Shown in pieces: positions 34,945-46,418 of a stretch of DNA of 64,000 nucleotides (position 1 is the first letter of the stretch; each line of letters opens with the position of its first letter). Origin of the DNA: Actinomycetes bacterium (GTDB lineage: Bacteria; Actinomycetota; Acidimicrobiia; Acidimicrobiales; Ilumatobacteraceae); the NCBI GenBank assembly GCA_029782355.1, contig JAKOUY010000016.1:124001-188000 (forward strand), given 5' to 3'. Made by a program: the position numbers and the translations under genes. The notes below the pieces were generated by a model, which was not told the origin of the DNA, searched no databases, and saw only the letters and a list, made by a program, of their open reading frames with translations.

Positions 34945-35089
34945 GCACCCAGCGTGGCACAGGGGTGTCGCTCGGTTCGCCGGCTTGCGCGACCGGGACG
35001 CGGTCGGCGGTGGGTGACGTAGTGTCGGCGCCGGGGTCGCGCCGATTCGCTGGTCGGTGGATGGGGCGTTGAGGACGAGGGGGACCGAG

Positions 35090-36751
35090 ATGCGACAGGC
35101 TGGGCGGCTGCTCGGGGCAGCGCTGGCAATGGGTGCGCTGGTGATCGCCGGAGCCGTGGACGCACGTGCCGGGACGGCCCCGCCGGGCCCGACCCCGCCG
35201 GCCACCAGCCCGCAGCTGCCGTTCGACGTCACGGTCAACGGGTTCTCGTTCCCCAACTACGGCAACGACGACGGCGTGACCAATCTGACCTCGGCCGACG
35301 TGGTCGCCCTGTTCGGCGACTCGGCATGCGCGATGGGCAGCGGCGAGGGGTGCACGCTGTCGCCGCCGGCGGCGCGATGGATGCAGGAGTCCAACGCGCG
35401 CGTGAACGGCGGGCACTGCGAGGGGATGGCCGCCCTGGCGCTGATGATGGACGAGGGTCTGATCGACCCGAACCAGTTCGGCGCGCCAACTGCCGGCCAG
35501 CTCACCCTGGCCGGCAACGTCCCCTTGCAGCGCGAGATCGCCAAGTGGTGGGTGACCCAGTCCCTCGACCCCACCTACCCCTCCACGCTCACCGGGCCGC
35601 CGGCGGGCATCGTCAACGCACTGCGCCAGTGGTTCGCCAACCCGTCGGGCAGCTCCGGCTACACGATCGGGTTCTACAAGCGCAACGGGACCGACGGGCA
35701 TGCGGTGACGGCGATCGGCCTGCGCGACCGCGGACCGGACGCCGTCGACATCGCCGTGTACGACAACAACTACCCAGGCGAGACCCGCTACCTGGCGGTC
35801 GACACGGCGAACAACACCTGGTCGTACAACGGCTCGCCGAACCCCGACCAGACCGAGGGGTTGTACGAGGGTGACGACTCGACGCGCACCTTGTTCATCA
35901 CGCCCACCGCCGCCCGACTGCAGCCGCAGCGCTGCCCGTTCTGCGACGCCGCGGCGCAGGCATCGGGCCTGCGGGCCGTGACCACCACACCGCCCAGTGA
36001 CTCGTTCGGCCTGGCGCCGGCAGCCCCGGCGGCGTCAGGTCCACGTCTCGCCGTGTACCTCGACGCGGCGGCGTTCGACGCGGGCGCACGCGTCGAGGTG
36101 CTCGACGCCAACGGCCAGCCGCTCGCCGGAGTCACCCGCGACGCGCCACGGGGCGGCGACGAGCTGAACACCAACGACGAGCCGCCGGTGTTCTTCGTGC
36201 CCACCGATGCGCCGTTCGACCTGGTGATCGACGCCACGGCGGCGACGGCCGAGGTGGCCGATGCCGGCCTGACGATCGTCGGCGCCGGCGTCGACGCGGG
36301 GGTGGAGGGGATCTCGCTGCAGCCCGGTCAGCGAGACACGCTGACCTTCGATCCGGCCACGACGGACCTCCGCTACACCACGACCAGCACCGAGTCGCCG
36401 ACGGTGTTCGTCGGCTTCGACGGTCATCCGGACAGCTTCGACTTCAGCTTCGCCGGCGTGGAGCTGGGAGCGTCGGGCGGGTCGCTCGACGTCCGCCTCG
36501 ATCGGAGCAAGCGGGTCGTCGCGGCGCGCACCAGCGGGTCCGCCGATGCCGCGGTGGCCCTCTCGCTGGAGCGGATCAACGATGCGGGCGACGAGGTGCT
36601 GACCCACGACAACCTGCCGCTGGCCCCGAACGAGACCTTCCTGCTCGACTACGGCAGCTGGACCGGCAACGGCAGTTCCGTCAAGGCCGGGATCGACCAG
36701 AACGGCGACGGGGTCATCGACGAGCCGTTGGAGATCACCGATCAGGCGTGA
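35090..36751 (+). CDS. secreted protein with a cysteine-peptidase-like domain
   Basis: A 553-residue exported protein with signal peptide (LLGAALAMGALVIAGAVDARA). The N-terminal ~270 residues contain NGGHCEGMAALALMM (Cys110), DGHAVTAIGL (His204) and VYDNNYPGETRYLAVD (near 224), the Cys-His-Asn/Asp order of papain-fold or C39-like peptidases. A disulphide-capable CPFC follows at about 283. The C-terminal half is beta-rich with Ig-like character. It ends with DQNGDGVIDEP, an EF-hand-type calcium loop. Protease activity is inference; such domains can also be transglutaminase-like or non-catalytic. A TAGTGT hexamer at 35020-35025 and G-rich Shine-Dalgarno precede the ATG. Confidence 0.75.
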   Translation: MRQAGRLLGAALAMGALVIAGAVDARAGTAPPGPTPPATSPQLPFDVTVNGFSFPNYGNDDGVTNLTSADVVALFGDSACAMGSGEGCTLSPPAARWMQESNARVNGGHCEGMAALALMMDEGLIDPNQFGAPTAGQLTLAGNVPLQREIAKWWVTQSLDPTYPSTLTGPPAGIVNALRQWFANPSGSSGYTIGFYKRNGTDGHAVTAIGLRDRGPDAVDIAVYDNNYPGETRYLAVDTANNTWSYNGSPNPDQTEGLYEGDDSTRTLFITPTAARLQPQRCPFCDAAAQASGLRAVTTTPPSDSFGLAPAAPAASGPRLAVYLDAAAFDAGARVEVLDANGQPLAGVTRDAPRGGDELNTNDEPPVFFVPTDAPFDLVIDATAATAEVADAGLTIVGAGVDAGVEGISLQPGQRDTLTFDPATTDLRYTTTSTESPTVFVGFDGHPDSFDFSFAGVELGASGGSLDVRLDRSKRVVAARTSGSADAAVALSLERINDAGDEVLTHDNLPLAPNETFLLDYGSWTGNGSSVKAGIDQNGDGVIDEPLEITDQA

Positions 36752-36776: not shown

Positions 36777-37535
36777 TCAGACGAGCACGTTGGCGAACAC
36801 CTGCCACGCCAGCAGGCTCTTGGCGATCAGGCTCAACCAGACGTACGTGCGCTCGCCGCGCAGGTAGTCCGCCCAGCGGCCCCGGGCCCGGTACTGCAGG
36901 AGCTGGACGACGGCGAAGCAGTTGAACATGACGAACAGCGACACGTAGATGCCGTAGACGAACCCGGGCATGCCCTCGTCGGCGCCGGCCAGATACACGC
37001 CGATGGCCACCCATGGGGCGATCCCGGCGATGCAGCCGAACACGTACGGGGTCCAGGTGCGTGCCGGGCGCTGCGGGTTGGCGGTCTCCATCAGCCAGCC
37101 GAACAGGATCATCGAGGCGTTGACGACGAACAAGGCGATCAGCGCGGCGACATCGGTGATCCCGGTGATGCCGGCGATGATGACGATCATCACCGACGCC
37201 GACAGCGAGTACTCGACCCACCGGAACCGGTTGCGGTGCTGGGCGAGTTCGGCGGTGTAGCGCTGCCACATCGGCCCGGCGACGAGGACGTGGAACAGCG
37301 CCGAGAGTACGCTGAACAGGGCGACCGCCCAACCGATGCGGTAGGTGAACAGCTGGTCCACCGCCGGGGGACGGCTGGGTTGGCCGGGAGGGCCGGAGGC
37401 GAACACGGCGGTCACCGGCAGCGAGCGCGAGTTGGACAGGGCGACCATGGCCACCGCCTGGGCGGCGTGGGCCACGGCCATCACCGTGTTGAGGGCGCGC
37501 AGCCGGCGGACGGAGGTGTCGGTGGGGGGCGTCAC
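36777..37535 (-). CDS. heliorhodopsin
   Basis: A 252-residue seven-helix retinal protein. The retinal Schiff-base Lys is K239 in SLIAKSLLAWQVF. The counter-ion Glu is E108 in RWVEYSLSASVM, and His23 and His82 match the cytoplasmic/internal His pair of heliorhodopsin 48C12. FGCIAGIAPWVAIG, VNASMILFGWLME and PGFVYGIYVSLFVMFN are signature stretches. Heliorhodopsins are inverted in the membrane, do not pump ions in most tests and have slow photocycles, so a sensory or regulatory role is suspected. Its GTG start overlaps the stop of an RskA-like anti-sigma gene (GTGA), with GGAG upstream. No retinal synthesis gene is in the window. Confidence 0.93.
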   Translation of the reverse strand: MTPPTDTSVRRLRALNTVMAVAHAAQAVAMVALSNSRSLPVTAVFASGPPGQPSRPPAVDQLFTYRIGWAVALFSVLSALFHVLVAGPMWQRYTAELAQHRNRFRWVEYSLSASVMIVIIAGITGITDVAALIALFVVNASMILFGWLMETANPQRPARTWTPYVFGCIAGIAPWVAIGVYLAGADEGMPGFVYGIYVSLFVMFNCFAVVQLLQYRARGRWADYLRGERTYVWLSLIAKSLLAWQVFANVLV

Positions 37536-38182
37536 GAGGAGCTCCTGGGAGGTGCCAGCACGCCGCGCAGCGCACTGATCGAGCTGTGCTTGGGCTGGCC
37601 GTCGGGGGGTTCGATGGAGATGTCGACGATGGGGAACTTGGCCGGGTCGTAGCCGGCGGGGATCGGGTAGGTCCCGTCGCCGTGGAAGGGCCCGAGTGAC
37701 ACCATCTTGTCGACGGCCGTGTCGATCATCCACACCTCGAGGTACGAGCCCGGAACCGACGGTGGCTTGTCGAGACGGATGTCGAGGTCCAGCTCGGATC
37801 CCTGGCGGCGGACCTCGGCCTGGCCGTGGGCTCCGACTGCCTGGGCGCTCAGCCCGTTGTTGGTCAGTTCGGTGGCCATCATCGGTGCCGACGCCGAGTC
37901 GCGCGAGGCGATCCACCATCCGCCCACGGCCAGGGCGGCGATGGAGGCGGCGACGGCCAACCACATCGGCGTGCGGGTACGCCGGCGGTCCGCCAGGTTG
38001 GTGATGGTGGCGCCCGGTGCCGTGTCGGCGACGGCGGCGTCGGTGAGGGACTGCTCGATCCCGGCCCACACCTCGGCCGGCGGGTCGTGGCGCAGGCCGT
38101 CGTCGGGCTGGCGGATGGCGAAGGCGTGGGCAACGAGGTCGAGGTCGTCCGAGCTTGGTTCGTCGGGGAAGGGATCAGCCAT
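37532..38182 (-). CDS. rskA: RskA-like anti-sigma factor
   Basis: A 216-residue single-pass membrane protein. The first ~75 residues are cytoplasmic (DDLDLVAHAFAIRQPDD, then PPAEVWAGIEQSL), followed by a helix MWLAVAASIAALAVGGWWIA and an extracytoplasmic domain with GSYLEVWMIDTAVDKMVSLGPF and PIVDISIEPPDGQPKHSS, the features of the RskA C-terminal domain. RskA holds SigK inactive at the membrane until regulated proteolysis releases it. The gene overlaps the sigma gene by 8 bases and the heliorhodopsin gene by 4, so all three should be made together. Confidence 0.87.
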   Translation of the reverse strand: MADPFPDEPSSDDLDLVAHAFAIRQPDDGLRHDPPAEVWAGIEQSLTDAAVADTAPGATITNLADRRRTRTPMWLAVAASIAALAVGGWWIASRDSASAPMMATELTNNGLSAQAVGAHGQAEVRRQGSELDLDIRLDKPPSVPGSYLEVWMIDTAVDKMVSLGPFHGDGTYPIPAGYDPAKFPIVDISIEPPDGQPKHSSISALRGVLAPPRSSS

Positions 38183-38729
38183 GGTTCACCACCTCGTGGG
38201 CGCTGCGCAGCGCCCTGGCAAGCCGGGGAATGGAGCGACGGAGGTCGCTCTTGACGGTACCGATCGGCAACCCGGTGCGATCGGCGATCTGTTCGTGGGT
38301 GAGGCCGTCGAGATGGGCCAACTCGACAACGGTCCGCTGGCGCTCGGGGAGCAGGCTCAGCGCGTCGTCGAGGACTAGGCGATCGGCGAGTTGTTCGAAC
38401 TCGTCGGGTCCCGCCGGTCCGTCGGCTTGGGGGTGATCTGCCACCGGCTGCTCGCGCCGTTTGCGCCAGTGATCGACGCAGCGGTACTTGGCGATGGCGA
38501 TCAGCCAACCGGCGAGGGTGCCGCGGGCTGCGTCGTAGCGGTGCTGGGCGCGCCACGCACTGACGAACACCTCTTGGGTGACATCGGCAGCGGAGGTGGC
38601 GCCGACGGAGCGGACGCAGTACGTGTGGACGAGGGATCCGTACAACCGGTATGCCTCGCCCAACGCACTGCGCCCTCCGGCGGCGAACGTGGCCTCGATC
38701 ATGGCGATGTCGCGTTCTGAGACAGCCAT
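38175..38729 (-). CDS. sigK: ECF sigma factor, SigK-like
   Basis: A 184-residue ECF sigma factor: region 2 (LGEAYRLYGSLVHTYCVRSVG, DVTQEVFVSAWRAQHRYD, GWLIAIAKYRCVDHWRKRR) and region 4 (LPERQRTVVELAHLDGLTHEQIADRTGLPIGTVKSDLRR). The SigK assignment rests on the adjoining RskA-type anti-sigma and on the fasciclin-domain gene upstream; in Mycobacterium SigK and RskA control the fasciclin proteins MPT70 and MPT83 (established knowledge). It sits 49 bases after that fasciclin gene on the same strand. Confidence 0.85.
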   Translation of the reverse strand: MAVSERDIAMIEATFAAGGRSALGEAYRLYGSLVHTYCVRSVGATSAADVTQEVFVSAWRAQHRYDAARGTLAGWLIAIAKYRCVDHWRKRREQPVADHPQADGPAGPDEFEQLADRLVLDDALSLLPERQRTVVELAHLDGLTHEQIADRTGLPIGTVKSDLRRSIPRLARALRSAHEVVNHG

Positions 38730-38778
38730 CAGGTCAAGGTAGTGGGGAAGTTCGCGACCAGCACCGTACGACGGGGGG

Positions 38779-39384
38779 TCAGCTGGGCGGCAGCACGACG
38801 GAGTCGATCAGGTGCACCGTGGCGTTGGCGACCGTCACGTCGGCGCACTGCACCGCAGCGGCACCACCGTTGATCACCACGGTGTCGTTGACCTTGGTGA
38901 ACTTGAGCTTGGCGCCGTTGACGGTGTCGACCTCACCGGCGGCCACGAGATCGGCGCTGCTCATCTGCTTGCCGATGACGTGGTAGGTGAGGACCTTGGT
39001 CAGCTTGTCCTTGTCGGCCAGCAGGCCGGTGAGGGTGGCCGGGTCGACCTTGTCGAACGCCGAGTTGACCGGGGCGATGATCGTGAACGGTCCGGGACCG
39101 TTCAGGGTGTCGACCAGGCCGGCGGCCGTGACCGCGGCGACGAGCGTGGACAGCAGCGGGTTGCTCGACGCTGCCGTGGCGGCCGGTGCCTTGGCCATCT
39201 CGGCGGCGCTGCCGGCGCCCTCGGCCGGAACCGCGGCGCACAGCGAGCCGGAGGGCCCGGACATGGCGGCCATCGTGCCGCCGGGTGGGGTGGTGGATGC
39301 TTGGGCGTGGACGCCGGTGGCGGTGCCGAGTCCCAGCGTGGCAAGTGCCACGCCGACGATCATCCGACGATGAGCTGCGTGCAT
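38779..39384 (-). CDS. secreted fasciclin (FAS1) domain protein, MPT70/MPT83-like
   Basis: A 201-residue exported protein: signal peptide (MIVGVALATLGLGTATGVHA) and one FAS1 domain with NPLLSTLVAAVTAAGLVDTL (H1-type) and the GPFTIIAPVNSAFDKV and LTYHVIGKQM boxes, ending TVHLIDSVVLPP. FAS1 proteins act in adhesion or as cell-surface antigens. It is the first gene of the fasciclin-sigma-anti-sigma-heliorhodopsin unit and the likely main target of the sigma factor, as in mycobacterial SigK regulons. A GGGAG Shine-Dalgarno supports the ATG. Confidence 0.9.
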   Translation of the reverse strand: MHAAHRRMIVGVALATLGLGTATGVHAQASTTPPGGTMAAMSGPSGSLCAAVPAEGAGSAAEMAKAPAATAASSNPLLSTLVAAVTAAGLVDTLNGPGPFTIIAPVNSAFDKVDPATLTGLLADKDKLTKVLTYHVIGKQMSSADLVAAGEVDTVNGAKLKFTKVNDTVVINGGAAAVQCADVTVANATVHLIDSVVLPPS

Positions 39385-39431
39385 GGTGGTGTCTCCCTGG
39401 TGTTGGGCCGGCACGGTGCCGACAGCCATCC

Positions 39432-39459
39432 CTTCGCACGAGCGGGCGTCCACGGATGC
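39432..39459 (-). promoter_or_regulatory. SigK-type promoter candidate upstream of the fasciclin gene
   Basis: On the minus strand GCATCC (39454-39459), 16 bases, GCGAAG (39432-39437). The mycobacterial SigK consensus as I recall it is CCATCC-N16/17-CCGAAT, giving 5/6 and 4/6 matches with correct spacing. It would start transcription about 45 bases before the fasciclin ATG and close an autoregulatory loop. Confidence 0.4.
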
Positions 39460-40018: not shown

Positions 40019-41395
40019 CTACCGAGACCGGTAGCCCGCGAGGTGCTCGAGCACGAGACTGTTCGCTTCCCAACCGTCAGGGAACTTCTCCGGCTCGTCG
40101 AGGAAGATCGGATCGGCGTCGGGGAACTCGGCGAGCAGCCGGTCGGCACCGGCGCGGCCGACGACGATGCACGCTTGCCGGTGGCGGGACAGCATCACGC
40201 ACATTCGTCCGGCTTCGAGGTGGAACGCAGTCGCGTCGCGGCGGCCGGCGAGCGGGTGCCACACCAGCACGACCTCGTACTCGCGGCCTTGGACCTTGTT
40301 CGCGGTCGACACCACGAGCGAGTCCGGGTCCACCCCGGCCTGGGCGAGGGCGTACCGCACGGCGTGGACTTGGTCGTTGTGAGCGGCGACGACGGCGACG
40401 TCACTCGCCGTGAGCGGTCGGCCTTTCGGTCGCAGTTCGTCGACGACGATTGCGCCGCGCTCGAGGAGGCGGCGAACAAGCTGGGCCATGCGCGAAGCGA
40501 TCGCTGTGTCGGTCCGAACGGTCAGCCGCTCGGGCAGCTCCACATAGGCCCAGCCCGCTGCGGCCGCGAGGTCGAGTACGTCGTCGTCCACATCCGAGCG
40601 CTTACCCGCGAGCTCCAGCGTTCGCTGCCCCGCAGCGGTTCCGGCGTCGAATCCTGCGAAGGGGTAGAAGGCCGCTGAGACGATCCCCGCTGCGCTCGCG
40701 GGCAGGCGCCATGAGGTGGGCAGCTGGTGTACGTCGATCTCCGGGTGGAACGCGCGGAGCGTGCCCATCGCGGTGCGAGACGGTGCATACTCGAGGCCCT
40801 TCCACAGCGAGTCGTCGATCGTGGTGAACGGGTCGAGCTGGCCGGGGTCGCCGACGCACATCAGCCGATCGAACAAGCCGGCGATGCCGAGCAGCGCATC
40901 TGACCGCATCTGGTACGCCTCGTCGATCAACGCGAGCCCGTACTTGCGAACGTTCCCGTTCTTCTGCTGGCCGGAGCGGACGAACTCCCACTTGCGGGCG
41001 GTTGCGACGACGACCTGGGCCTGCTGAACGTCGGAAGCGTCGTGGTCGCTGGACAGCACCAGCCCCGGCCCGCTGGCTGCGAGAGCGAGCATCGCGTGTG
41101 ATGGACCGGACGTCGATCCCGTCAGCCGGGCAACGGCGATCTCCGGGTGCTTCTTACGAAGCGATGCGACGATGTCGTCCGCTTGCTCGTTCGTCTGGGT
41201 GACGATCGGGAGGCGGAGGCGTCTGTCGTGGGCCGTCAACTCGTTCGTGACGGACACGGCGAGCGAACTCTTCCCGGCGCCTGGCGGCGCCTCGACGAGC
41301 ACCGCCTCGTCGGCGGCGAGACGGCCGATGTCGTCGACGACACGGCGGGTGTAGTCGGCGTTGATCGACACGAAGTCGTGGACAGCACCGGTCAC
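40019..41395 (-). CDS. SF1 helicase, Upf1/Dna2-like
   Basis: A 458-residue superfamily 1 ATPase. Walker A is EAPPGAGKSS (residues 35-44), an ISxT-type motif Ia follows, Walker B reads ALIDEAYQM, motif III region CVGDPGQLDPF, and the C-terminal motor half ends with VVSTANKVQGREYEVVLVW and CVMLSRHRQACIVVG, the V and VI motifs of the Upf1/Dna2 group. It is compact, without accessory domains. The GTG start overlaps the stop of the unknown-function gene (GTGA). In fused homologues elsewhere this type of motor is joined to a RecB-like nuclease; here the nuclease is two genes upstream in the same operon. Confidence 0.85.
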   Translation of the reverse strand: MTGAVHDFVSINADYTRRVVDDIGRLAADEAVLVEAPPGAGKSSLAVSVTNELTAHDRRLRLPIVTQTNEQADDIVASLRKKHPEIAVARLTGSTSGPSHAMLALAASGPGLVLSSDHDASDVQQAQVVVATARKWEFVRSGQQKNGNVRKYGLALIDEAYQMRSDALLGIAGLFDRLMCVGDPGQLDPFTTIDDSLWKGLEYAPSRTAMGTLRAFHPEIDVHQLPTSWRLPASAAGIVSAAFYPFAGFDAGTAAGQRTLELAGKRSDVDDDVLDLAAAAGWAYVELPERLTVRTDTAIASRMAQLVRRLLERGAIVVDELRPKGRPLTASDVAVVAAHNDQVHAVRYALAQAGVDPDSLVVSTANKVQGREYEVVLVWHPLAGRRDATAFHLEAGRMCVMLSRHRQACIVVGRAGADRLLAEFPDADPIFLDEPEKFPDGWEANSLVLEHLAGYRSR

Positions 41396-42957
41396 AGAAT
41401 CACCCCGGGCTCGTCTGCTGGGCTCACGGCACCGACGATCGGGATCGCAGCAAGTTCGGCAACGGTCATGTCGGGGCTGTCGTCGCTCGCACCGGCGGTC
41501 GGGTCGGTGGAGTCGTCCCCGGCGAGCTCGGACGTCGTGGGCCGGTGCGTCCACGGCACCTCGTCGGGAGCCCACGGGTTCTGGCCACCCCACGGGTCGA
41601 GCCCGACGAACACCATCTCGTCGCCTACTCCCACACTCGCTTCGCCGAGGGCCTTCACCCCGCCGGTGATCGCGATCGTGAGCGACTCAGGGTGCACGTC
41701 GCGCAGCTCTCCCTTCACGCGCTGTTCGCCGGCCCACCGGACGACCTCTCCGGCCAGCAGTTGGGTCGGGGCGGTCAGCGTCAACTTGATCAGCGGAACG
41801 GTCGTCCGGTTCTTGCCGCCCGGCTTGATCTCCTTGTGGTCGACGTCAAGCGACGTGACGTCACCAGTGACGCAGCGACCGGCCGCGTCCAAGCCGGCGA
41901 GGATCAACGGGTCGTCGAAAGCCTGGTCGGTCTCGAGCTCTTCCGCTGTTGAACTCCAACGCTGAAGCATGGCTGCGGCCCGCAGAGGGTCGTGGCGTCG
42001 AGCGAAACGCGGGATGCCGTTTGCCGATCGGCGGGCGTGAGCCCCCCACTCGTACACGTCGTTGTCCCAGCGCTTCGCGACGCTCGCCGCCGGCGAGATG
42101 CTGCGCATCACTGCGATCGCACGGTGAGTCGCCGCATACGCGACTGAGAGTGCGTCGCGGACCTCGCGTTCGACGTGCTCAAACGCCAGTCGCATCCTCT
42201 CTGGGTCATCCTCACGCAGGCCCTCCGTGTAGGCCCTCACGAACGGTTCAAGCCGGCGCTCCCAGTCCGGGTTGGGAACCGGACCGTACGCATGCTGCTC
42301 GAGCCGCTCGAGCTCGGGCAGCCGATCGCCCGGCAAGCCGTCGATCCACGCCAACAGTGTTGCCAGGTTCTCGTCCTCCAACGCCGACTGGCCGGTGACG
42401 AAGTGCTGCGACAGTGTCTCGGTCATCGCCAGGAACGTCGACTGACCGGGCAGGTTGGCGTGCTCGGCGAACCAGGACAGGTGTGCTCCTGTCCACTGTG
42501 TCGACTCCGGCACCTCGTGGGTGTCGCCGAGACCGAGGTAACGAAGCGAGCGACCGAGCCGTGCGCCTAGGTAAGCGCGTGTCGCCCGATTCGGTGTAAC
42601 GATCTGCGGAGCGCTCGATGTCACTTGCCGGAACGTCCCTGGCTTCCGGGGCACCGGCACGGCTCGGAGAATCAGATGCGGTCGAACGAACTCGACGAAG
42701 TCCGTCGCGAACGCGTTGATCGCGCCGAACCGGGAGTCGCGGTTGCGGGGCTCGGCAGCAACGACCAGGGACGCCTTGCCCGGATCGTTGTCGGTGCCGT
42801 ACATGATCCCGAGCGGTGCCGCGGCTTCGCCGGACAGGTTGTACGCGACGACCACGAGCGGTCGGTCGGACAGGTGCACGTGCCGGTACGCCGTTCGCCG
42901 CACGGCTGCGCCGGCCCGGGCGGCTTCCGCTGCCATCACCACGTCCAGCAGGGTCAC
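41392..42957 (-). CDS. protein of unknown family, middle gene of nuclease-helicase operon
   Basis: A 521-residue soluble protein that I cannot assign. No membrane segment, P-loop or nuclease motif is evident. The N-terminal ~150 residues (RPLVVVAYNLSGEAAAPLGI, FATDFVEFVRPHLI) may form an alpha/beta domain. The middle (residues 170-330) is helix-rich and contains a long EGLREDDPERMRLAFEHVEREVRDAL stretch. The C-terminal ~150 residues are beta-rich (VTSLDVDHKEIKPGG, LTLTAPTQLLAGEVVRW) and the tail is acidic and disordered. GTGA overlaps at both ends tie it tightly to the Cas4-like nuclease before it and the helicase after it, so it is most likely a structural or specificity subunit of the same complex. 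Confidence 0.7.
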   Translation of the reverse strand: MTLLDVVMAAEAARAGAAVRRTAYRHVHLSDRPLVVVAYNLSGEAAAPLGIMYGTDNDPGKASLVVAAEPRNRDSRFGAINAFATDFVEFVRPHLILRAVPVPRKPGTFRQVTSSAPQIVTPNRATRAYLGARLGRSLRYLGLGDTHEVPESTQWTGAHLSWFAEHANLPGQSTFLAMTETLSQHFVTGQSALEDENLATLLAWIDGLPGDRLPELERLEQHAYGPVPNPDWERRLEPFVRAYTEGLREDDPERMRLAFEHVEREVRDALSVAYAATHRAIAVMRSISPAASVAKRWDNDVYEWGAHARRSANGIPRFARRHDPLRAAAMLQRWSSTAEELETDQAFDDPLILAGLDAAGRCVTGDVTSLDVDHKEIKPGGKNRTTVPLIKLTLTAPTQLLAGEVVRWAGEQRVKGELRDVHPESLTIAITGGVKALGEASVGVGDEMVFVGLDPWGGQNPWAPDEVPWTHRPTTSELAGDDSTDPTAGASDDSPDMTVAELAAIPIVGAVSPADEPGVIL

Positions 42958-44165
42958 GGGGTGCTCGCTCTCGGCAGTGGCGGCGTCACACCGGCCGTCG
43001 GCACACGGGCGCGCGCCCGCTGAATCGCTGCGTACGTGTCGCCGAGCGCCTCGGCGACATCGGCTAGTTCCTCCTCACCCGCCGCTGGACCAGAAGTGGC
43101 GAGGCGCAGAGCGTCGGCGAGTGAGTGCACCCCGGCGAGGTTGTCGCGAACGGTTCGTCCCAGCCTCGCCGGGTCGTCGTGCTCCCACGCCTCCCATCGA
43201 CAGAACTTGGCCATGTCGCAGTTCTGCACGCACTCCGGTACGTACAACGCAGGCACGCTCTCGACAGCGTTTCGGAGCGCCCACCGCAACGCAACCCCGT
43301 CGAGCTTTGCGGCCGGGTCGACGTCGAACGTCAGCCCGTCCGGCAGGGTCGCCAGCACGTCGGGAGTCCGTGGCACCGCCTTGAGAACCCGGGCCAACGA
43401 CATCGACTTCTTCTTCAGCGGGATCCGGTGAGCCACCGGCTGGCGACCGAAGTTGCGCGGAGCCACCAAGATCACCGACCACACGAGCAACTCGGGGTCG
43501 AAACCGAGTCGTTCGAGCGTCGCCCGCAACGCCATGTGGTACACGGCCGACTGGCCGGCCGTCGACGCCAGCTTCCCAGGATCGGCCTGCCCGTCGATGA
43601 TCGGGTAGGCCTTGATCTCGACCAACTCGAGCTTCTCACCGACGCGGAACGCCAGGGCATCCGGCTCCAGGTTCACGGTCACGCCGGTGAGGTCGAACCG
43701 CAGCACCGGGTGATCGACGATGTGCGGCGCGTGCTCGTCGCCACGAGCGATTTGCGACAGCACGTCGTCGGTGCGAGCGACCCGAGCGTCCATCCATTCG
43801 GGCGTATACCGCCGCCCGCCGATGTCGTTGACGTCCTCGACGATGAGGTCCGGTGGCTTGGGCAGATCCACGTACCGCGCCAGGGCGTCGACCAACAGTT
43901 CGTAGCCACTCCGCCGCTTCAATCGGTCTTCGAATCGATTTCCGCCCTCGATCGCGAACGGCGATTGCCCTCGTGGGGTCGGGTGCCCCAGCTTCTCAGC
44001 CAACTCGTGGGCTGCGACGCCCGCAGCGTCGATCACCCGGCGGCGAGTACAACCAGGGTTCTCCGTCAGCGCCGCAACGGATCGGGCGTTCGCACGGGCA
44101 CCCGGCAGCGTGCCCCGGATCGCATCGAGACCTCCAACCGCATCGCCGCCCTCCCGCAGGCTCAT
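42954..44165 (-). CDS. Cas4/RecB-like PD-(D/E)XK nuclease with iron-sulphur cysteines
   Basis: A 403-residue nuclease. Active-site residues are readable: D169 in LEPDALAF, E183-I-K185 in LVEIKAYP and Q205-x-x-x-Y209 in GQSAVYH, the complete RecB-family set. Four cysteines are placed as in Cas4, AddB and Dna2: one N-terminal (C39 in NPGCTRRR) and three C-terminal (C312, C316, C322 in CVQNCDMAKFC), expected to hold a 4Fe-4S cluster. G-x-R-FED near residue 77 corresponds to the family's conserved helix. No cas1 or CRISPR array is present, so it is not CRISPR adaptation Cas4. It heads a three-gene operon; the start is leaderless after TAGGGT at 44172-44177. Confidence 0.85.
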   Translation of the reverse strand: MSLREGGDAVGGLDAIRGTLPGARANARSVAALTENPGCTRRRVIDAAGVAAHELAEKLGHPTPRGQSPFAIEGGNRFEDRLKRRSGYELLVDALARYVDLPKPPDLIVEDVNDIGGRRYTPEWMDARVARTDDVLSQIARGDEHAPHIVDHPVLRFDLTGVTVNLEPDALAFRVGEKLELVEIKAYPIIDGQADPGKLASTAGQSAVYHMALRATLERLGFDPELLVWSVILVAPRNFGRQPVAHRIPLKKKSMSLARVLKAVPRTPDVLATLPDGLTFDVDPAAKLDGVALRWALRNAVESVPALYVPECVQNCDMAKFCRWEAWEHDDPARLGRTVRDNLAGVHSLADALRLATSGPAAGEEELADVAEALGDTYAAIQRARARVPTAGVTPPLPRASTP

Positions 44166-44171
44166 GTGTGC

Positions 44172-44177
44172 ACCCTA
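44172..44177 (-). promoter_or_regulatory. -10 hexamer TAGGGT of the nuclease-helicase operon
   Basis: TAGGGT on the minus strand lies 6 bases before the ATG at 44165. The 93-base gap 44166-44258 also holds the divergent mod start, so the two operons share one control region. Confidence 0.45.
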
Positions 44178-44258
44178 TGTCTCCGGATCCGTATGAGTTC
44201 GCTCTGGGCGGACTCGGCAAGACGAGGCGCTTCCAAGTTGTCCAAAGGAGGACGGGTC

Positions 44259-46418
44259 CTGTCTCGCTTGAACGATCTGTTGCGACAGCTGCGGATGGAG
44301 AACGCCGCACTCGCCGACGACCTGCAGCGCGAGTACGACGCCCTCGCCGACCGGCGTTCCTTCGGACTCAACTTCGAACGACACGTCCCGGAGGCCGTCG
44401 AGCTCCCCGGCCGTATGGTTCGCAAAGGTGACAAAGTCCGCATCCTGCCGCCTCGCGGCGAGGTACGCACTGCCGATACCGACAGGCTCTGGCGGGTCAC
44501 CTCAGTCGAAACGGCCGACGGCCCCCGGCGGGCGACGCTGATCTCCCTCGACGACCTCGACGAGACAGCATCCAGTCCGGTCAGCGACCTCGTCGTCGTG
44601 GCAGAGTTCCGCGACCCGATCTACCCCGGCCTCGTGTCGACCGGCAAGGTAGAGCGCGGCGGTGACAAGCCGTTCCACACGGTCATCAACGCAGAGAACT
44701 ACCACGCCCTCCAGACGCTGCTGTTTACTCATCGCGACAGGATCGACTGCATCTACATCGACCCGCCGTACAACACCGGCGCCAAGGATTGGACCTACAA
44801 CAACGACTACGTCGACAGCGGTGATCTTTACCGTCACTCAAAGTGGCTCGCTTTCATGGAACGCCGCCTGGAGCTCGCAGCTGAGCTGCTGAAGTCGGAC
44901 GGCGTGCTGGTGGTCACCATCGACGAGCACGAAGTTCAGAACCTAGGGCTCCTGCTCCGACAGGTCCTCCCCGAGGCCAGGGTCCAGTTGGTCACCATCG
45001 TCACCAACACTGCGGGCTCAATGTCGCCCGGATTGTTCACGCGAGCTGACGAGTACGCCTACTTCTGCTTCTTCGGCGAGTCCAGCCCGAATCGGATGCC
45101 CACCGACTTGTTGTCCGAGTCAAGGGGTGCGCCTCAGTACTGGTTCCCTCTGGCCCGAGGGCGTGGGCTGAACGACCGCCCGTCGAGACGCCCGAACCTC
45201 GTCTACCCGATTGCTGTAGATCCCGACTCTCAGCAGATCGTTGCGGTCGGTCGATCACTCAAGGATCGCGTGGATGCTGGCGAGGTGTCGGGTGACCTTG
45301 ATGCATGGTTGCCCGACCCGGATGAAACCCTCGACGGCAAACCACTCGTCTGGCCTGTTCGGGACTCCGGCGACGTGTCGACTTGGCAAGTATCGGCTGC
45401 GGCCCTCCCCGGATTGATCGCAAAGGGCTACGTCCGCGTTCGCATACCGCGCAGCGACCCGAAGCCATTCCGACCGTTCACTCTCGCCTATATCAAGTCC
45501 GGGACCCAGCGGAAAGTTGAATCCGGCGAGATCGAGATCGCAGGGCGAGAGCCTGATGGGGCTTTGATTCTTGCCGGAGGCGACCAGTCAAGCATCCCCA
45601 AGACGACCTGGAAGGTAGCCTCCCACGACGCCCGACTTTACGGAACGACGATGCTTCGGGCACTGTTGGGCGCCACCACCTTTACGTACCCGAAGTCTCC
45701 GTACGCTGTTCGCGACACGCTTCAGGCGCTCGTCGGAGAAAATCCCAATGCAGTGATTCTGGACTTCTTCGCCGGATCCGGCACCACTCTGCAGGCGACC
45801 ACGATGCTGAATTCCCAGGACGATGGAGAGCGGCAGTGCATTCTGGTGACCAACAATGACGTGCCAGAAGATCTACGGCGCCAGTTGATCACCGAGACCC
45901 GGCGGCCCGGCGACCCAGAGTGGGAGTCCAGAGGGATCGCAACTGCGGTGACGTGGCCACGAGTGGTTGCCGCCCTCTCCGGACAGCGCATGAACGGCGA
46001 ACCGCTCGAGGGCGAGTACATCGACGGCACCGCCCTCTCTGAGGGGTTCGAGGAGAACGCTGAGTTCTTTACCTTGACCTACGAAGCGCCGCTGCGCGTC
46101 AGTTCAAACCGGGAGTTTGCCAAGATCGCGCCGCTGCTCTGGCTGAGGGCGGGCTCGCGAGGTCGGCGGATCGACAACATGTCGAACGGCTGGGACGTCG
46201 CTGACGTGTACGGGGTGATCACTGATCTCGACCAGTCCGAGCCTTTCTTGAAGGCGATCGCCGAGAACGATGACGTAGCGATGGTGTTCATCGTGACGGA
46301 TGAGGACAAGTTGTTCGAGGCGCTCGTTGCCGCTCTGCCGGACCACGTGGAGCCGGTACGCCTGTACGAGTCGTATCTGCGGAACTTCGAGATCGAGGCT
46401 GGAAGGGCGGCCCGGTGA
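44259..46418 (+). CDS. type III-like DNA adenine methyltransferase (Mod)
   Basis: A 719-residue N6-adenine methyltransferase of the beta class: catalytic DPPYNTG at residues 168-174 comes before the S-adenosylmethionine motif FFAGSGTT near 505, with a ~330-residue region between that should include target recognition. The N-terminal RSFGLNFERH stretch is typical of Mod proteins with a type III or related restriction partner. I place the start at CTG 44259, 7 bases after AAAGGAGG (44244-44251), giving the family's usual SRLNDLLRQL beginning; ATG 44193 is an in-frame alternative without a Shine-Dalgarno. The stop overlaps the res start as GTGA. Codon use around 45000-45750 is less GC-biased than the flanks. 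Confidence 0.9.
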   Translation: MSRLNDLLRQLRMENAALADDLQREYDALADRRSFGLNFERHVPEAVELPGRMVRKGDKVRILPPRGEVRTADTDRLWRVTSVETADGPRRATLISLDDLDETASSPVSDLVVVAEFRDPIYPGLVSTGKVERGGDKPFHTVINAENYHALQTLLFTHRDRIDCIYIDPPYNTGAKDWTYNNDYVDSGDLYRHSKWLAFMERRLELAAELLKSDGVLVVTIDEHEVQNLGLLLRQVLPEARVQLVTIVTNTAGSMSPGLFTRADEYAYFCFFGESSPNRMPTDLLSESRGAPQYWFPLARGRGLNDRPSRRPNLVYPIAVDPDSQQIVAVGRSLKDRVDAGEVSGDLDAWLPDPDETLDGKPLVWPVRDSGDVSTWQVSAAALPGLIAKGYVRVRIPRSDPKPFRPFTLAYIKSGTQRKVESGEIEIAGREPDGALILAGGDQSSIPKTTWKVASHDARLYGTTMLRALLGATTFTYPKSPYAVRDTLQALVGENPNAVILDFFAGSGTTLQATTMLNSQDDGERQCILVTNNDVPEDLRRQLITETRRPGDPEWESRGIATAVTWPRVVAALSGQRMNGEPLEGEYIDGTALSEGFEENAEFFTLTYEAPLRVSSNREFAKIAPLLWLRAGSRGRRIDNMSNGWDVADVYGVITDLDQSEPFLKAIAENDDVAMVFIVTDEDKLFEALVAALPDHVEPVRLYESYLRNFEIEAGRAAR

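Follow-up and report, generated by a model that had tools for sequence, protein, structure and literature searches.

What does a heliorhodopsin (HeR) do at the end of an operon that otherwise encodes a fasciclin protein, a sigma factor and a membrane anti-sigma factor? In the window, which is the whole stretch of 64,000 nucleotides analysed here, four genes follow one another on the minus strand in the order FAS1 (fasciclin) gene, ECF sigma factor, RskA_C-type membrane anti-sigma factor and HeR. The initial annotation had described this order, with overlapping ends between the last three genes, and had proposed that the rhodopsin may modulate the release of the sigma factor at the membrane, making fasciclin expression dependent on light. 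All four genes are confirmed by Pfam and NCBIfam matches in the order described, and the span from 36777 to 39459 also takes in a putative promoter at 39433-39458, as listed here:

39433 to 39458, minus strand: putative operon promoter of the ECF type, with CATCCG (39453-39458), N16 and CGAA (39433-39436), 49 nt ahead of the start of fas
38779 to 39384, minus strand: fas, secreted FAS1-domain (fasciclin, MPT70-like) protein (PF02469, E=5e-33)
38175 to 38729, minus strand: sig, ECF sigma factor (Sigma70_r2 and r4_2, E about 2e-15)
37532 to 38182, minus strand: rsk, membrane anti-sigma factor with an RskA_C extracytoplasmic domain (PF10099, E=1e-12)
36777 to 37535, minus strand: heR, heliorhodopsin, terminal gene of the operon, with a GTG start (PF18761, E=3e-95)

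The genes are tightly packed. A Shine-Dalgarno sequence GGGAG precedes the ATG of fas, sig and rsk overlap by 8 nt, and rsk and heR by 4 nt (GTGA), the GTG start of heR overlapping the stop of rsk and its own Shine-Dalgarno sequence AGGAG sitting within rsk. The overlaps are thus as first described; however, the translational coupling of anti-sigma factor and rhodopsin had also been taken to support an interaction between them, and since overlapping gene ends are common in actinobacterial operons they are no proof of one. Neither a promoter-like nor a terminator-like site was found in the 49-nt gap between fas and sig, and a sigma-70 promoter scan of the operon gave no match. An assembly artefact is unlikely, as the composition of heR is that of the adjoining genes (GC 0.69, GC3 0.96) and the operon is internal to an 851-kb contig. 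On the one side, convergent with HeR and with 25 nt between the genes, lies a secreted-looking protein (window 35057-36751) that has no Pfam, NCBIfam or PADLOC match. On the other, a defence-like island (40019-46418) comprises an SF1 helicase (AAA_11/AAA_12) with a weak MkoA/MkoC match, two genes without a Pfam match (41392-42957 and 42954-44165) and, on the opposite strand, a type III DNA methyltransferase.

As far as sequence can tell, the family assignment of HeR, as a type 3 rhodopsin, is unambiguous. Indeed, the match to PF18761 covers the full length of the protein (1-242/242), the NCBIfam HeR model NF038020 is matched with 308.9 bits (cut-off 100), and a phmmer comparison with the solved 48C12 structures gives E=5e-76; the retinal-binding lysine, the glutamate counterion and the conserved histidines are all present (K239, E108, H23 and H82), as had been noted. 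It is the single HeR of the window genome, which is 98% complete. In the same genome, no phytoene synthase was found and an RPE65-family carotenoid oxygenase is encoded at G000:C19:276828-278117, so that the supply of retinal would need an imported carotenoid or an outside source; a search for a retinal-cleaving BCD enzyme, run without a positive control, found none. The sigma factor, with regions 2 and 4, is above the cut-off of the generic NCBIfam sigma70-ECF model and is directly followed by an RskA_C anti-sigma factor with a single transmembrane segment (roughly residues 73-93), which is the arrangement of a sigma/anti-sigma pair. The label SigK turned out to be too specific, since the SigK model NF007228 is matched with 90.5 bits against a cut-off of 226. 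The cytoplasmic N-terminus of rsk (window 37967-38182) is unusually short, without a Pfam match and apparently without the usual long anti-sigma domain, and in an alignment the orthologues in genomes G011 and G029 are short there too; the second RskA of the window genome (L325) has a canonical cytoplasmic anti-sigma domain.

The exact fas-sig-rsk-heR operon was found only in the window genome, and in no other genome were rsk and heR found immediately next to each other. The nearest relative of this HeR (L025, 68% identical) has none of the fas, sig and rsk neighbours and no link through the promoter motif described below, and the commoner state in relatives is fas-sig-rsk without an adjoining HeR, which occurs in G007, G009, G011, G029 and G031. 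Among these genomes, G009 and G011 have a HeR far from the module, and in G007, G029 and G031 no HeR was found. Given these HeR-less modules and the unlinked relative, HeR probably joined a pre-existing fas-sig-rsk module in the lineage of the window.

The single occurrence of the order does not make the association a local accident, as it recurs beyond the window genome. HeR neighbourhoods at 123 Acidimicrobiia loci were searched for sigma, RskA and FAS1 genes by means of profiles, with gene starts from a custom caller and genomes that are mostly MAGs; for RskA the profile was built from PF10099 hits, because single-sequence phmmer overlooked divergent copies. FAS1, ECF sigma and/or RskA genes lie near HeR in several families and in several layouts. 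With the window excluded, and with a background set by the number of Pfam matches in each genome, a FAS1 gene lies no more than 5 kb from HeR in 5 genomes where chance predicts 0.6 (p=4e-4), and an RskA gene in 3 where chance predicts 0.3 (p=0.004). In particular, fas is upstream of HeR in L159, L203, L214 and L223, and together with sig in L225; sig and rsk lie on the strand opposite HeR in L198, L210 and L228, and in L181 they diverge from a molybdopterin oxidoreductase gene, fas and HeR. A nearby fas is always on the same strand as HeR and upstream of it. As for rsk, most linked relatives have it in divergent orientation to HeR, at a distance of kilobases, or elsewhere in the genome. It is possible that not all of the sigma genes near HeR are of one ECF subgroup. 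A weak and unreliable RskA match in L223 (E=0.007) was dropped, as were the sigma matches in L191 and L115, which are housekeeping or response-regulator matches. The comparison with related genomes called for by the initial annotation thus gives a divided answer, in that sigma and anti-sigma genes recur near HeR and the exact four-gene order does not.

Other genes also recur at these loci. The NmrA-DUF2867 family is found near HeR in 12 loci, and at L109 (5772-8173, G009) HeR directly follows an NmrA-DUF2867 gene, whose end it overlaps by 4 nt. B12-binding proteins, three of the six with an HTH_17-like N-terminus (LitR/CarH-like), are encoded at L203 (5871-6740), L225 (7406-8236), L223 (2372-3235), L210 (4184-5158), L228 (5903-6904) and L226 (7380-8366); the B12-binding genes beside Acidimicrobiia HeR accompany NmrA/DUF2867, SRPBCC and DUF427 genes.

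A further possible link between HeR and the sigma factor is provided by the putative promoter. Its motif, CATCCG-N15/16-CG[AT]A, stands before fas in the window and also in L159, L214, L225, L320 and L324, and at other loci lies upstream of HeR itself. It precedes HeR in 14 of 123 loci, whereas among 1017 other genes 10 have it (p=1.1e-8 in Fisher's test), and as the motif was first spotted by eye in some of the loci later used for testing, the enrichment was also computed without the five discovery loci (p=1.4e-6). If there is a bias in the control rate it is upwards, since several of the motif-bearing other genes are recurrent HeR neighbours (NmrA/SDR, SRPBCC, DUF427, DUF4397). At HeR genes, the motif on the reverse strand occurs in 3 of 123 loci, wrong spacings give 2 and 0, and permuted hexamers 0. 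An assumption-free dyad search of the HeR upstream regions, taken upstream of an aligned anchor residue and excluding the conserved HeR N-terminus, placed ATCCG-N15-CCGT and ATCCG-N16-CGTA at the top among 5+4 dyads. Among five newly added HeR loci the motif is present in one, from a close relative of L198, and it precedes none of 41 HeR genes outside Acidimicrobiia.

The regulon of the window genome was mapped by a pattern search, which returned 26 sites, of which 3 are intergenic and correctly oriented; they lie before the window operon, before another operon of the ECF sigma/RskA kind and before an Hsp70-like gene. As two of the three precede ECF sigma/RskA operons, the motif can be called a candidate autoregulatory ECF promoter, and it may well be the one recognised by the window sigma factor. 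The third site (G000:C19:40001-40026) reads CATCCG-N16-CGTA and lies 12 nt before the Hsp70-like gene.

The link is nonetheless not general to HeR, since the strict motif is present at only about 11% (roughly one in nine) of Acidimicrobiia HeR genes and about one fifth of the rows of the HeR tree show any link. In this tree of 143 rows, the linked states are scattered: 30 rows have the motif and/or the neighbours, and their distribution implies no fewer than 20 changes of state, with 13 for the motif alone and 14 for the neighbours alone, counts in which gain and loss are indistinguishable. Inheritance of one block within a single clade cannot account for the linked rows. Motif and neighbours tend to occur at the same loci (p=0.035), although most have only one of the two.

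Taken together, the gene content, order and overlaps, the recurrence and the motif enrichment are observed, and the explanation that we consider rather probable is that HeR is an output, i.e. a regulon member, of an autoregulated ECF sigma/RskA operon. The four genes would form a single autoregulated operon of an envelope-stress system, transcribed from the CATCCG-N16-CGAA promoter before fas. An envelope signal would inactivate the anti-sigma factor, the sigma factor would then raise the expression of its own operon, and more fasciclin protein and more HeR would be produced. In other Acidimicrobiia, HeR would often have a separate promoter of this type or, alternatively, would lie beside fas, sig and rsk in different layouts. 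By this route HeR could provide a light signal, or light-dependent protection, to a cell under stress. Membership in a regulon would explain why the neighbours vary while the promoter recurs, and it would move HeR from the partner of an adjacent gene to a component of a wider response. Indeed, in several lineages of Acidimicrobiia the promoter-like motif connects HeR with a defined kind of sigma response and with named companion genes, thus making its physiological context directly testable with regard to the signal of the sigma factor, the rise of HeR and the role of light.

The proposal of the initial annotation runs in the opposite direction, with a light-sensing HeR that touches RskA in the membrane, alters the release of the sigma factor and makes the regulon light-dependent. 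The immediate overlap of rsk and heR in the window is in its favour, as are the nature of both products, membrane proteins with predicted cytoplasmic N-termini, and the reports that HeRs bind the products of neighbouring genes, such as glutamine synthetase (PMC9529153) and an ABC transporter (PMC11109279). However, relatives lend it no support, since they do not keep rsk and HeR together: the linked ones mostly have HeR divergent from, kilobases from or unlinked to rsk, the module stands without an adjoining HeR in G007, G029 and G031 and with a distant one in G009 and G011, and the adjacent pair is confined to the window genome. Thus, of the original interpretation the association is supported and the direction from HeR to RskA is not; an action of HeR on RskA is possible but, as HeR is mostly separate from rskA in related loci, unsupported, and we regard this model as improbable. 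The chance is slimmer still that a change of HeR upon illumination acts through RskA in the membrane to set an envelope-stress regulon that is under ECF control and includes surface fasciclins, in which case the neighbours of Acidimicrobiia HeR would be traces of such a coupling. HeR as a target of the sigma factor is favoured over HeR as a partner of RskA because HeR in relatives usually lies apart from rskA, on a presumably separate transcript or at a great distance, and often behind a promoter of the fas type.

Another account is passive hitch-hiking, in which heR would have been inserted by chance behind rsk and would be transcribed by mere read-through, without regulatory meaning. The exact order in the window genome only, and the commoner HeR-less module in relatives, agree with such an event, and a chance order with the rhodopsin elsewhere in close relatives had been named in advance as a ground for rejecting the link. 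The order is indeed unique and the HeR of relatives does lie elsewhere, but many of these HeR genes carry a promoter of the same type, and linkage and motif recur independently in several families, which makes hitch-hiking an unlikely account. Less unlikely, though still doubtful, is a broader light regulon, in which HeR, the ECF sigma factor, FAS1, NmrA/DUF2867, SRPBCC and DUF427 would be switched on by B12-dependent LitR/CarH-like regulators. HeR would then be one light-response protein and the sigma factor would be light-induced without HeR acting on it, a possibility compatible with HeR as a regulon member. In its favour, the six loci given above have HTH_17 and B12-binding regulators or B12-binding proteins next to HeR, the CATCCG motif also precedes SRPBCC, NmrA/DUF2867 and DUF427 genes at those loci, and activation of the ECF factor LitS by LitR is described in Streptomyces (PMC12705666). 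On the gene map, however, no LitR/CarH-like regulator adjoins the window operon, and the linked gene sets vary among loci.

With regard to known systems, HeR at this locus is probably a co-transcribed neighbour gene as in published HeR operons (PMC11109279, PMC9529153, PMC8612252). Strict HeR operon partners were published in 2021 (PMC8612252) and ten HeR operon groups in 2024 (PMC11109279), and none of the ten, as far as the main texts of these two papers go, is a sigma/anti-sigma or fasciclin group; a literature search lying mostly outside subscription journals likewise found no paper on HeR with an anti-sigma factor or fasciclin. The Streptomyces LitR/LitS system (PMC12705666) also brings together a B12 photoreceptor and an ECF sigma factor, and B12-binding regulators occur near some HeR loci. 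Unlike in that system, no LitR-like gene adjoins the window operon and no carotenoid genes are visible as its target.

The promoter consensus of SigK is CCATCC...CGAATA, and the putative promoter of the window is of similar general look. As in a SigK-type regulon, FAS1 genes lie behind a CATCC...CG(A/T)A promoter-like motif in the window and in L159, L214, L225, L320 and L324. The likeness extends to the genes, as in Mycobacterium tuberculosis sigK-rskA, with the FAS1 proteins mpt70 and mpt83 as targets (PMC7509140, where cysteines 133/183 of SigK are also discussed), an ECF sigma factor is probably co-transcribed with an RskA-type anti-sigma factor. In contrast to that system, the window sigma factor is below the SigK cut-off, the cytoplasmic part of its anti-sigma factor is much shorter, and the operon includes a heliorhodopsin.
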